In this document: positions 3,524 through 9,286 of the stretch, one piece after another
Layout of the letters: each line of letters starts with the position of its first letter
How positions within the stretch are numbered: position 1 is the stretch's first letter
Assembly (NCBI RefSeq): GCF_000092245.1
Contig: NC_014166.1
Coordinates: forward strand, 1,674,001 to 1,738,000
Direction of reading: 5' to 3'
Origin: Arcobacter nitrofigilis DSM 7299
GTDB taxonomy: Bacteria > Campylobacterota > Campylobacteria > Campylobacterales > Arcobacteraceae
Length of the DNA: 64,000 bases
The notes under the pieces: model-generated
Told to the model about the DNA's origin: nothing
What the model saw: only the letters and a program-made list of their open reading frames with translations
Database searches by the model: none
Translations under genes and position numbers: made by a program

Positions 3524-5638
3524 ATGGAAAAATATATATTTAAACGTGATAAAGAAAAAGAAGTGTATCAATCTTATAAAATAAAAGATGCAATAAAAAA
3601 AGCCTTTAAAAGTGAACAAATAAATTATGATGAAAGAGTATTTTTTAATGTTGTTAATAAATTAGGGCTAATCGAAGAATTATTTGTAGAAGATATTCAA
3701 GATATTATAGAAAAAGAGCTTTATAATTTTAAGTATTTTGAGGTAATGAAATCATTTATGGTGTATAGACATACCCACAAACTCCAAAGGGAACATGTCT
3801 TAGGATTAAGTGAAGATACAACTTTTATAAACTCGACGCAAACTGTTGAAGAGTATATTTTAAAAAGTGATTGGAGAGTAAATGCTAACTCTAATACTGG
3901 ATATTCACATGCAGGTCTTATAAATAATAGTGCAGGAAAAATAATTGCAAATTATTGGTTGGATAAAATATATTCTAAAAAAGAAGGTTATGCCCATAGA
4001 AATGCTGATTATCATATACATGATTTGGATTGTTTAAGTGGATATTGTGCAGGCTGGAGTTTAAGGATTTTACTTGATGAGGGATTTAATAAAGTGAGAG
4101 GAAGAGTAGAAAGTAGTGCTCCAAATCATTTTAGAGAAGCATTAGGACAAATGGCAAACTTCTTGGGAATACTACAAAGTGAATGGGCAGGTGCTCAAGC
4201 CTTTAGTAGCTTTGATACTTATTTAGCTCCTTATGTATTTAAGGACAATTTAGAATATAAAGAAATAAAAAAAGCTGTAAGAAGTTTTATTTATAATTTA
4301 AATGTTCCCGCTCGTTGGGGACAAAGTCCTTTTACAAATATCACTATTGATTGGACTGTTCCAAATGATTTAAAAGATCAAATTCCTACACGAAACCAAA
4401 AGCACCTTTTTAAAGACTTTAAAGATGAAATTCTTCTAAAAAAACTAAGAATCAAAGGATGTAACTCATTTGAAGAATTGACTTATAAAGATTTTCAAAA
4501 TGAAATGAACCTCATAAACAAAGCCTATTATGAAATAATGACAGAAGGTGATAAAACAGGTCAACCTTTTACTTTTCCTATTCCTACTGTAAATATCACT
4601 GAAGATTTTGATTGGTATGGAGAAAATACAGATTTATTATTTGAAAATACAGCAAAAATTGGAAGTTCATATTTTCAAAATTTTATTGGTAGTCAATATG
4701 AAAAAGATGAAAATGGAAATTTAGTCCCAAATGAAAAAGCCTATAAACCAGGTCATGTGAGAAGTATGTGTTGTAGGTTGCAACTTGACTTAAGAGAACT
4801 TCTTAAAAGAGGTGGTGGATTATTTGGAAGCGCTGAAATGACAGGAAGTATTGGTGTAGTTACTATTAATATGGCTAGACTAGGATATTTATATAAAGGT
4901 GATATAAATAGTCTACTTAAAAAACTAGAAGAGTTAATGGACTTAGCAAAATCAACCTTAGAGAAAAAAAGAGTCTTTATTCAAGATATGTATGAAAGAG
5001 GTCTATTCCCTTATACAAAAAGATATCTAAAAGGATTTAATAATCACTTTTCAACTATTGGTGTAAATGGTATGAATGAAATGTTAAAAAACTATTTTTC
5101 TAATGAAGTTGATATGGCTTCAGACATTGGAAATGATTTTTGTATCCAAATATTAGATTTTATGAGAGATAAAATGCTTCAATATCAAGAAGAGACTGGT
5201 AACTTATATAATCTTGAAGCAACACCAGCAGAGGGTACAACTTACAGATTTGCAAAAGAAGATAAAAAAAGATTTAAAGACATTATTCAAGCTGGATTTG
5301 ATAAAAATATCTATTATACAAACTCTTCTCAACTTCCAGCAAACTATACAGATGATCCATTTGAAGCATTAACGCTACAAGATGAACTTCAGTGTAAATA
5401 TACAGGTGGGACAGTTTTACACTTATATATGAATGAAAGAATCTCATCAATAGAATCTTGTAGAAAATTTGTGAAAAATGTAATCACAAATTTTAGACTT
5501 CCATATATAACCGTAACGCCATTATTCTCTATTTGTGAAAAACATGGGTATTTAAATGGGGAGCATGAGTTTTGTCCAAAATGTGATGAAGAAATTTTAA
5601 AACAGGAGATAAAAGATGAATTATCAAGAATTGCTTGA
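3524..5638 (+). CDS. nrdD: anaerobic (class III) ribonucleoside-triphosphate reductase, main polypeptide without its glycyl-radical loop
   Basis: Reduces ribonucleoside triphosphates to deoxyribonucleotides without oxygen. Residues 1-90 are an ATP-cone allosteric domain, followed by the ten-stranded barrel. Near the C terminus a zinc-ribbon-like segment (CEKHG, then CPKC) is present. In ordinary NrdD the zinc segment is followed within the same chain by the RVxGY glycyl-radical loop. Here the protein stops about 20 residues after the last cysteine, and the loop is coded by the next, overlapping gene at 5616 in another frame. The start is set by GAAGGAAT ahead of the ATG. The 161-base upstream gap presumably holds the promoter; I could not identify an NrdR box. 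Confidence 0.93.
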   Translation: MEKYIFKRDKEKEVYQSYKIKDAIKKAFKSEQINYDERVFFNVVNKLGLIEELFVEDIQDIIEKELYNFKYFEVMKSFMVYRHTHKLQREHVLGLSEDTTFINSTQTVEEYILKSDWRVNANSNTGYSHAGLINNSAGKIIANYWLDKIYSKKEGYAHRNADYHIHDLDCLSGYCAGWSLRILLDEGFNKVRGRVESSAPNHFREALGQMANFLGILQSEWAGAQAFSSFDTYLAPYVFKDNLEYKEIKKAVRSFIYNLNVPARWGQSPFTNITIDWTVPNDLKDQIPTRNQKHLFKDFKDEILLKKLRIKGCNSFEELTYKDFQNEMNLINKAYYEIMTEGDKTGQPFTFPIPTVNITEDFDWYGENTDLLFENTAKIGSSYFQNFIGSQYEKDENGNLVPNEKAYKPGHVRSMCCRLQLDLRELLKRGGGLFGSAEMTGSIGVVTINMARLGYLYKGDINSLLKKLEELMDLAKSTLEKKRVFIQDMYERGLFPYTKRYLKGFNNHFSTIGVNGMNEMLKNYFSNEVDMASDIGNDFCIQILDFMRDKMLQYQEETGNLYNLEATPAEGTTYRFAKEDKKRFKDIIQAGFDKNIYYTNSSQLPANYTDDPFEALTLQDELQCKYTGGTVLHLYMNERISSIESCRKFVKNVITNFRLPYITVTPLFSICEKHGYLNGEHEFCPKCDEEILKQEIKDELSRIA

Positions 5639-5780
5639 AAGAAACAGTAAAAAAAGAACAAAATGTATAGTTTATACTAGAGTTATGGGTTACCATAGAC
5701 CAGTTGAAAGCTTTAATATAGGTAAAAAAGGTGAACACAAAGAAAGAATCAAATTTGTTGAATCAAAAAATTGTTTATGA
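5616..5780 (+). CDS. detached glycyl-radical domain of class III ribonucleotide reductase
   Basis: A 54-codon gene, easily missed because both ends overlap neighbours (23 bases with nrdD, 50 with nrdG). Its core reads CIVYTRVMGYHRP and then ESFNIGKKGEHKER. This is the NrdD C-terminal signature, with Gly25 in RVMGY as the expected radical-bearing glycine. It has its own ATG and a strong Shine-Dalgarno (AGGAGA, about 6 bases upstream), so it is expected to be made as a separate polypeptide that completes NrdD. The frame differs by one from nrdD, so a ribosomal frameshift is an alternative. However, a frameshift product would carry a linker longer than in usual NrdD. The assignment of the motif is firm; the mode of assembly is inference. 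Confidence 0.85.
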   Translation: MNYQELLERNSKKRTKCIVYTRVMGYHRPVESFNIGKKGEHKERIKFVESKNCL

Positions 5781-6435
5781 TTTTACAAAATTTACAACTA
5801 CAGATTACATAGGATATTTATCTTGTGTAATCTGGTTTAAAGGGTGTAATATGAGATGTCAATATTGTTATAATAATGATATTGTATTTTCTAAAAATGG
5901 TAATTACTCTTTAAATGATATTTTAACTTTTTTGAAAAATAGAGTAGGGATGCTTGATGCTGTAGTATTATCAGGAGGTGAAGCAAGCCTTTATGATTTG
6001 ACTGCTATTTGTAAAAAAATTAAAGAATTGGGATTTAAAATAAAGCTAGATACAAATGGATTAAATCTTGTTTTAATAAAAAAACTTATAAAAGAGAAAC
6101 TAATAGATTATATGGCAATAGATTTTAAAGCGCCAAAATATAAATATAAAACTATAACAGGTGTAAATAAATATACCCAATTTATTAATACAATAAAATA
6201 TTTGATAAATATTAATTTTAGTTTTGAACTTAGAACTACTGTTAATTCAAGCTTATTAGATGAGAATGATATAAATAATATGATAAATACAATTACTAAC
6301 TTGGGATATAAAAATACATACTACTTACAAAATTTTTTACAAACTAGTTCAAATATTGGAAATATACAAAAACAAAGGGATATAAAAAAAGAAGAACTTA
6401 TACAAAATAGTTTAACTATTCAATGGAGAAATTAA
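5731..6435 (+). CDS. nrdG: anaerobic ribonucleotide reductase activase, radical SAM
   Basis: Activates NrdD by generating the glycyl radical with S-adenosylmethionine and a [4Fe-4S] cluster. The radical SAM motif CNMRCQYC is near residue 39, with the glycine-rich LSGGEASL segment at about residue 79. It starts with GTG at 5731, inside the glycyl-radical gene; TTG codons at 5755 and 5758 are weaker alternatives. At 234 aa it is somewhat longer than short NrdG proteins. The 3' end meets the convergent response regulator with a 24-base overlap. Confidence 0.9.
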   Translation: MNTKKESNLLNQKIVYDFTKFTTTDYIGYLSCVIWFKGCNMRCQYCYNNDIVFSKNGNYSLNDILTFLKNRVGMLDAVVLSGGEASLYDLTAICKKIKELGFKIKLDTNGLNLVLIKKLIKEKLIDYMAIDFKAPKYKYKTITGVNKYTQFINTIKYLININFSFELRTTVNSSLLDENDINNMINTITNLGYKNTYYLQNFLQTSSNIGNIQKQRDIKKEELIQNSLTIQWRN

Positions 6436-7092
6436 ATACCCTTGCCCTAAAACATTTTCAATAACATCTTTAGACATTTTTAGCCTTAGTCTTTTTATAA
6501 AGGTTCTAAGCCGCTCATCACTTACTTCTTCACTCCAAAGTGTAGATTTTATTTCTTCAGTACTTACAAGAATATTTTGATGTTTTATTAATAAATACAA
6601 AAAATCTTTTTCCCGTTTTGTAATATTTACAATTTTTCCATTTTCATACAAAGTCATAGTATTATTATCAAAGGCAAAATTCTCTTTTAGTAATACTCTT
6701 TTTTGTTTGTTTAACTTAGGTGCTATTTTTTTAATGTGATTTATAAGGTCTTCTGGATCAAAAGGCTTAATAAAATATTTATTTATTCCTGTATCAATGG
6801 CTTTTAATAACTTTTCTTTATCAGAATGAGCACTTAATATAATAATAGGAGTTACTTCATCAAACTCTTTTATTTTTTGTGTCATTTCCAAACCATCACA
6901 AAGTGGCATCATAATATCAGTTATTACAATATCTGGTTTAAATGATTTAAACTTTTTTAAACCCTCTTTCCCATCTTTTGCAATAATTACAGAAAAAAAA
7001 TAATCATTTATTGCATCTTTTAAAAGTTGAGCTAGTCTTTTCTCATCCTCGACTATTAATATTTTTAAATCTTTTAATAAGTTTTCTTTCAT
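6412..7092 (-). CDS. two-component response regulator, OmpR-type
   Basis: DNA-binding response regulator. Residues 9-120 form a receiver with the acidic pair EDE, the phospho-acceptor aspartate in DIVITDIMMP and the conserved lysine in FIKPF. Residues 135-226 form a winged-helix DNA-binding domain (KREKDFLYLLI, ERLRTFIKRLRLK). It follows the histidine kinase by 7 bases and is its evident partner. The signal and target genes are unknown. Confidence 0.92.
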   Translation of the reverse strand: MKENLLKDLKILIVEDEKRLAQLLKDAINDYFFSVIIAKDGKEGLKKFKSFKPDIVITDIMMPLCDGLEMTQKIKEFDEVTPIIILSAHSDKEKLLKAIDTGINKYFIKPFDPEDLINHIKKIAPKLNKQKRVLLKENFAFDNNTMTLYENGKIVNITKREKDFLYLLIKHQNILVSTEEIKSTLWSEEVSDERLRTFIKRLRLKMSKDVIENVLGQGYLISPLNS

Positions 7093-7099
7093 ATCTTTC

Positions 7100-7777
7100 C
7101 TAATTATTTAAAGGTATAATAATCGTAAAAATAGAACCATTTTTATAGTTTTTGTGAACTAATTCACCTTCGAAACTTTTTTCAATAATCATCTTTGACA
7201 TAAACAATCCCAATCCTGTACCTTGACTTTTATGTTTTGTTGTAAAATAAGGATCAAATATTTTATCTAAGTTATCTTTACTAATTCCGCCAGCATTATC
7301 TATTATTTCTAATTTCGCATATTTTTTATCTAAGATTTTCTCTTCACTTAATTTTATTTCTATAATTTTGTTATTTATACTATTAAGTATAAAGGCATCT
7401 TTTGAGTTTTGAATTAGATTTATAACTACTTGTGTAAGTTCATTTAATACGCCTACAACTTGGTAGTTCAATGGCACATTTAACTTTAAAGTTATACCTT
7501 CAATAACTTTTTTTAAAATCACTAAAGATTCATCAACTGCTTTTTTTATCTCAAAGCTTTTCTTTTCTTTTTGTGGATTGAAAAAGTTTGAAAAATCATC
7601 TATTATTGAAGACATTGTAGATATCAAATTTTTACTCTCAAGATAAAGTTCATCTAACTTCTCTTTTTCATCTGTATTAAAAAACTTTTTCATATTAAAA
7701 AGTGTTAGATTAAGCTCTGTTAAGGGTTGTCGCCATTGATGGGCAATATTTCCTAACATTTGACCTAAACTTGCCAT
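7100..7777 (-). CDS. histidine kinase catalytic fragment (C-terminal part of split kinase)
   Basis: 225 aa holding the DHp helix with the phospho-acceptor histidine in NIAHQWRQPL, the N box (VVINLIQNSKDAF), G1 (DNAGGI), F box (DPYFTTK) and G2 (GTGLGL). All catalytic boxes are intact, so it could act if translated from the internal ATG at 7777. No clear Shine-Dalgarno precedes that ATG, and the frame is open further upstream in the direction of the coiled coil. See the pseudogene entry for the frameshift. Confidence 0.75.
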   Translation of the reverse strand: MASLGQMLGNIAHQWRQPLTELNLTLFNMKKFFNTDEKEKLDELYLESKNLISTMSSIIDDFSNFFNPQKEKKSFEIKKAVDESLVILKKVIEGITLKLNVPLNYQVVGVLNELTQVVINLIQNSKDAFILNSINNKIIEIKLSEEKILDKKYAKLEIIDNAGGISKDNLDKIFDPYFTTKHKSQGTGLGLFMSKMIIEKSFEGELVHKNYKNGSIFTIIIPLNN

Positions 7778-7920
7778 TCTTGATTGTAAAAATAGAAGTT
7801 TTTGTTTCTCTTCATTTTTTTTAATCTCATCCTTAACTCTATGTTCTAAGGTTTTATTTAACTCTTTTAACTCTTTTGTTTTAATAGATACTCTATTTTC
7901 TAAATCTTTATTTAACTCTT

Positions 7921-8310
7921 CTAACTCTTTTTCTTTTTTTCTAATCTTTTCTTTAACTCAACTTCTTCTGTTACATCATATCTTATAGCAATGAACTCTT
8001 TTATATCATCATTCTCATCTAAAATAGGAGTAATCGTAGTATTTAAATAGACAGTTTCCCCATCTTTTGTTAGATTTTTAACTGTTGCTTTATAGGGTTT
8101 TTTATTTAAAATAGTACTCCAAAGGAGGGTAAAATTCCTCTTTGGAATATCTGGATGTCTTACAATATTATGGTTTGCACCAATTAGTTCTTCATGTTTA
8201 TAGCCAGAAATTTTGCAAAACTCATCATTGACAAAAGTTATTATTCCATTAATATCAGTTTTAGATACTATATTTGAATTTTCAATTGCCTCTTGATAAG
8301 TTTGGCTCAT
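7921..8310 (-). CDS. PAS domain fragment (N-terminal part of split histidine kinase)
   Basis: 129 aa forming one PAS domain with PAC motif: SKTDINGIITFVNDEFCKIS, then GANHNIVRHPDIP, ending with IRYDVTEEVELK. This kind of PAS with NIVRHPDMP is typical of redox or aerotaxis-type sensors, so flavin binding is possible but not shown. It begins one base after the hemB stop (TAAAATG), so the sensor is in the hemB operon. If truly expressed alone it would be a free PAS protein. Confidence 0.75.
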   Translation of the reverse strand: MSQTYQEAIENSNIVSKTDINGIITFVNDEFCKISGYKHEELIGANHNIVRHPDIPKRNFTLLWSTILNKKPYKATVKNLTKDGETVYLNTTITPILDENDDIKEFIAIRYDVTEEVELKKRLEKKKKS

Positions 8311-8311
8311 T

Positions 8312-9286
8312 TTATTTTCTATTTAAAAGCTCACAAGCCTCTTTTGCATGATATGAAATAATAATATCAGCACCAGCTCTTTTAAAAGATATTAAAGTTT
8401 CCATTACTGTTCTTTCATAATCAATTAAACCAGCTTTTTCTGCATTTTTAAGTAAAGCATATTCTCCACTTACATTATAAACAGCTAGTGGTAAATTTGA
8501 ATTGTTTCTAACATCTCTTACAATGTCCAAATATGCTAATGCTGGTTTTACCATAAGAATATCTGCCCCTTGATTTTCATCTTGAATTGATTCTTCAATA
8601 GCTTCTCTTCTATTTGCTGGATTCATTTGATAAGATCTTCTATCACCAAAAGATGGAGTTGAATCAGCAACATCTCTAAAAGGCCCATAATAAGCACTTG
8701 CAAATTTAGTTGAATATGCCATAATTGGTAAATCAGTAAATCCATTTTCATCTAAAGCAGTTCTTAAAGTCTCAATAATACCATCCATCATTCCACTAGG
8801 AGCAATCATATCAGCACCAGCGCGTGCATGAACAAGAGCTTGTTGAGCAGATATTTCTAATGTTTTATCATTATCAACAGTTTGAGTTTTTGGGTCAAGT
8901 ATTCCACAATGACCATGGTCCGTATATTCACAAAAACATAAATCAGTAGATACAAACATATTAGGGAACTTCTCTTTTACAGCTCTTATTGTTCTTGCAA
9001 TTATACTCTCATCACATAAACATTCACTTCCTACAGAGTCTTTAACATCGGGAATACCAAATAAAATAATTGAATTTAAACCTATAGTTTGAATATATTC
9101 ACACTCTTTTAAAATCTCATCAATGCTCATTTGAAAAACACCTGGCATAGATGCAACTTCAGTTTTAATACCGCTTCCCTCTACTACAAATAATGGATAT
9201 ATAAAATCATTTGGGCTTAGGTTTGTTTCTTGCACTAGTGCTCTTAAATTTTCATTAATTCTTAATCTTCTTAATCTTTTAAACAT
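8312..9286 (-). CDS. hemB: delta-aminolevulinic acid dehydratase (porphobilinogen synthase)
   Basis: Condenses two 5-aminolevulinate molecules to porphobilinogen, the second common step of haem synthesis. The metal-binding segment [14 protein letters not shown] (near residue 120) has the cysteines of zinc-type enzymes. The Schiff-base lysines sit in [16 protein letters not shown] and [10 protein letters not shown]. Full length at 324 aa. It is followed directly by the PAS sensor gene. It is one of four haem-pathway genes in the window (hemN, hemB, hemD, hemW). Confidence 0.96.

Follow-up and report, generated by a model that had tools for sequence, protein, structure and literature searches.

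A sensor kinase gene of Arcobacter nitrofigilis DSM 7299 is broken in two at a short run of adenines, and the question raised by this locus is whether that run acts as a reversible switch, is a site of recoded translation, has recently mutated, or is recorded one base short in the published consensus. The window (the whole stretch of DNA analysed, 64,000 nucleotides) was previously the subject of a preliminary description, which reported a kinase gene split at a homopolymer. That observation is real: positions 7934-7940 of the plus strand read TTTTTTT, corresponding to A7 on the coding (minus) strand, and the PAS and kinase open reading frames (ORFs) on either side of it lie in different frames. 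The parts of the locus are as follows:

8312..9286 (-): hemB (porphobilinogen synthase), the upstream gene, whose synteny is conserved
7921..8310 (-): ORF of 129 aa with the PAS domain, the N-terminal half, whose stop codon lies 10 nt past the tract
7934..7940 (-): the A7 tract, site of the frame break, in the zero-frame register A_AAA_AAG
7100..7957 (-): the C-terminal half, an open frame with a coiled-coil linker, HisKA with HQWRQPL, and HATPase_c
6412..7092 (-): response regulator (receiver plus Trans_reg_C), the downstream gene, with an AGGAAAG-like ribosome site of its own

The kinase frame is open over all of its 285 codons (it extends between the stop codons TGA at 7960 and TAG at 7102), which bears out the further claim that no other stop interrupts the gene. 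Within this frame the first ATG, GTG or TTG is the ATG at 7777, about 12 codons before the phospho-acceptor motif, so that the ORF beginning there (7777-7100) comprises 225 aa; moreover, inspection by eye of the sequence upstream of this ATG revealed nothing resembling a Shine-Dalgarno sequence. Because the frame thus offers no earlier start codon and no visible ribosome-binding site, it is unlikely that a useful kinase would be translated independently. A domain search recognizes both halves: the PAS half matches PAS_3 (E 1.4e-15), and the kinase half matches HATPase_c (E 1.9e-17) and HisKA (E 5e-4, with a score below the curated cut-off).

The order hemB, PAS kinase, OmpR-type response regulator is conserved within the family: among 30 loci (L161-L190), hemB was found in 29 and the regulator in 29, the two missing neighbours (hemB in L170, the regulator in L167) not being found in the stretch covered. 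At three other loci (L009, L010 and L045) no response regulator was found immediately after the kinase; that of L045 is situated about 1.5 kb away. The linkage to hemB is real and conserved, and the break would, as had been proposed, uncouple the PAS domain from the kinase. Among solved structures and NCBIfam models, the PAS half is nearest to the PAS domains of Aer and NifL: it matches an aerotaxis receptor (8dik, E 1.6e-21), a 'sensor protein' (3ewk, E 7e-23), a nitrogen fixation regulator (2gj3) and the NifL NCBIfam model (E 7e-22, with a score far under the model cut-off). The Aer and NifL PAS domains bind FAD, and redox- or oxygen-linked control is, judging from these sequence similarities, a reasonable guess at the role of the hemB-adjacent system. 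A parallel with H. pylori ArsS/hemB was considered and dropped; the literature search yielded nothing on a frameshift in that system.

Orthologues and the age of the break

To place the break among relatives, the intact orthologue from a sister species (G001) was used as the query in a search of 104 family genomes, of which 75 yielded a match at E <= 1e-60. In every one of the 67 other genomes with a hemB-linked orthologue (E <= 1.5e-70), the gene is a single uninterrupted frame of 356-428 codons, where in five cases one TAA inside the matched span was taken as the terminal stop and where seven weaker matches (G093, G004, G112, G019, G117, G016 and G125) were left out of the count. A. nitrofigilis DSM 7299 is the sole split genome in this search (133 + 285 codons); in other words, as in a pseudogene, its frame is disrupted relative to intact orthologues. 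No second A. nitrofigilis strain with a sequenced genome emerged from the literature or from a search of genome contigs by name, a search that may omit the window's own genome; one paper takes NC_014166.1 as the record of this type strain (PMC10336517).

At the aligned position of the tract both sister species carry A8, and an uninterrupted A8 occurs there in 13 of the 55 other distinct orthologue sequences; one (L188) carries A7 followed by G, in frame, and the remaining rows have AAG codons or other residues. The A tract therefore reflects codon usage rather than a maintained element. The orthologues also fall into two linker classes: the PAS domain and the H-box are separated by about 33 residues in one and 76 in the other, a difference that amounts to the gain or loss of a 43-residue coiled coil (L004, L006, L007, L015, L033 and L034 compared with L002 and others).

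Across the syntenic block, the DNA of A. nitrofigilis and that of G001 are about 90% identical, and dN/dS between the two genes lies within 0.09-0.12 (PAS 0.094, linker 0.095, kinase 0.116). When G002 is used as an outgroup, 10 amino-acid changes in the kinase are confined to A. nitrofigilis versus 7 to G001, as are 11 versus 15 synonymous codon changes. Thus neither relaxed selection nor any further disabling change, such as another stop, accompanies the break. Both halves are under purifying selection, and therefore the break is either very recent or not real. The preservation of both halves and the recency of the break, each put forward in the preliminary description, agree with these values, with the domains found, and with the intactness of the gene in relatives.

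A second split gene in the window

The same window contains a split gene of another kind, namely that of the anaerobic ribonucleotide reductase NrdD. Its 704-aa body (3524-5638, plus strand) ends at position 530 of the 562-position Pfam model, and a separate 54-aa ORF (5616-5780, plus strand), which has its own AGGAG site, covers positions 530-562, including the glycyl-radical motif. Of 60 relatives belonging to the same order, 38 have NrdD and 35 gave a match to the small ORF; at each of the 30 loci read, from 29 relatives and A. nitrofigilis itself, the tail is a separate short frame (52-73 codons). Two genomes (G006 and G048) have model positions 1-562 fused in one frame; in another (G025) positions 2-562 are spanned only across two TAA stops; and for two more (G039 and G034) one search gave a single long frame of body plus tail (811 and 804) and the other gave short frames (57 and 73). 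A literature search, judged by title or by the start of the abstract, found no split NrdD. This conserved split is more interesting than that of the kinase.

Mutation or consensus error

The explanation favoured here, to which something close to an even chance is given, is that one base was lost by replication slippage, very recently, from an ordinary A8 in the DSM 7299 kinase gene. This explanation starts from the observed break, from its uniqueness among relatives and from the preservation of both halves, and supposes that the DNA really carries the break. The slip may have occurred in the type strain or in its laboratory stock; slippage in A/T tracts of 7-8 bases within C. jejuni sensor and regulator genes is documented in culture (PMC3930126, PMC7677240). 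Translation would then end after a 129-aa PAS-only protein; since the kinase half lacks a good start site, the neighbouring OmpR-type regulator would receive a reduced signal or none. Small amounts of full-length product might still be made when ribosomes slip by -1 at A_AAA_AAG, and rare slippage in the reverse direction could bring the gene back into frame. The break can be explained without an evolved switch: unless both versions of the tract occur, the A7 split is a singleton for which an ordinary explanation suffices.

Somewhat less probable, yet a serious contender, is a consensus error, in which case the real gene is intact and the assembly of 2010 lacks one base of the tract. The genome of this strain (type strain CI; 3,192,235 bp) was assembled from 454 reads (43.5x, the main source) and Illumina reads (15.7x) and polished, with a stated error below 1/100,000; its pseudogenes number 28 in the text of the report and 70 in its table (PMC3035288). 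The same report assigns the organism to biosafety level 1, with no pathogenicity known. For a 454-based draft, the stated error ceiling leaves room for as many as about 4 errors within the 404 kb examined below. The break is a singleton that falls among the longest run classes, with neither half decayed, and a survey of 1106 genomes expected singleton frameshifts with intact homologues to stem from sequencing errors and not from genuine indels (PMC3711429).

Against such an error stand the Illumina polishing and the state of the neighbourhood. For the latter, 404 kb of A. nitrofigilis, or 12.7% of its genome, was set against a single 366-kb contig from G001, with 295 kb aligning; in counting breaks, stops within 25 residues of either query end were dropped. 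(The internal stops flagged in a first pass all lay about 13 residues or less from a query end and reflected over-long starts or slightly different ends; likewise, a 5-base gap at genome position 1690992 was left out of the count because it falls in an ORF that is short and aligns poorly.) Among the 276 matched G001 genes, the split kinase alone is frame-broken in A. nitrofigilis, and in the reverse direction none of 277 is broken. This single break was found despite 100 A/T runs of at least 8 in the G001 genes (95 of length 8 and 5 of length 9); the 277 shared genes of A. nitrofigilis contain 423 A/T runs of 7 and 71 of at least 8. Between genes, homopolymers of at least 6 show 10 indels deleted and 8 inserted in A. 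nitrofigilis relative to G001 (counting those that are not a multiple of 3), and this balance gives no sign of systematic undercalling by the assembly in the compared region.

One break per 404 kb is compatible with a low rate of real pseudogenes as well as with the error ceiling given for the assembly. Polishing and the absence of other breaks nearby tip the balance slightly toward a real mutation, though the two are close. If the recent slip is real, then the type strain of the Arcobacter type species may be blind to the signal of a conserved hemB-linked system, and the loss of kinase signalling would be relevant to physiological work with DSM 7299; if instead the consensus is wrong, the annotation of the kinase gene is to be corrected.

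Switching and recoding at the tract

That the tract has evolved to turn the two-component system reversibly on and off, as the preliminary description suggested, is improbable. Its appeal lies in the recency of the break, in the intactness of both halves, and in the precedent of C. jejuni FlgR and FlgS, which switch through A/T tracts (PMC3930126, PMC7677240). This poly-A precedent makes phase variation at this locus conceivable, though unsupported. The tract is of ordinary length for this genome: the sense ORFs of 264 kb of A. nitrofigilis contain 283 A7, 60 A8 and 3 A9 runs, and across these 264 kb A/T runs do not exceed 9, while G or C runs of at least 7 are absent. Nor is it conserved or variable among relatives in the manner of a contingency locus: A8 occurs in 13/55 rows, 0/67 other genomes are off-frame, and one state is seen in one assembly. 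A literature search, judged by title, found no Arcobacter that switches by homopolymer phase variation. The bolder proposal, that in a salt-marsh Arcobacter slippage or leaky decoding makes the hemB-linked PAS kinase alternate between two forms, PAS-only and full-length, is likewise a long shot; if true, switching of the FlgSR type through poly-A would no longer be confined to Campylobacter and would include a heme- or redox-linked regulator, and poly-A phase variation in the phylum would gain another two-component system.

Least probable is programmed or compensatory -1 ribosomal frameshifting at A_AAA_AAG, by which PAS-only and full-length proteins would be made from one mRNA. The heptamer does stand in the right register (GAA AAA AAG in the PAS frame), conforms to the zero-frame pattern X_XXY_YYZ, and leads by a -1 shift into the second ORF, the kinase frame; the motif ranks with the most efficient ones in E. 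coli if a stimulator is present (PMC4066793); and the three tRNA-Lys genes found are all UUU (54 of 55 tRNA matches were examined). Against this, the 246 predicted ORFs of the 264 kb contain 33 occurrences of A_AAA_AAG in slippery register; folds of the RNA downstream are no more stable than those of shuffled sequences (z -0.02 over 60 nt, 0.32 over 70 nt), so that no stimulatory structure was detected there; and the split is absent from all relatives examined, all 67 of which have a single frame. Because the heptamer is in register and only UUU tRNA-Lys was found, low-level leakiness is plausible, but a frameshifting programme is not supported. Transcriptional slippage is described for runs of 9 (PMC5009743) and for a run length n > 7 (PMC3711429); the run here is 7.

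Three known systems invite comparison. With C. jejuni FlgS/FlgR (Hendrixson 2006, 2008, as described in PMC3930126 and PMC7677240) the present case shares a single-base indel, an A/T run of 7-8 bases, a two-component gene and the phylum; in C. jejuni, however, both states and reversion were observed, whereas here there is one state in one assembly, and the kinase and operon differ from the hemB-linked system. With a -1 site of the dnaX type it has in common the identical heptamer in register and the finding of only UUU tRNA-Lys; the present site differs in having no stimulatory structure, in the frame break being unconserved, and in the relatives having one frame. The singleton frameshifts of the GeneTack survey (PMC3711429) share with the present case one broken genome, intact homologues elsewhere, and poly-A at the break.
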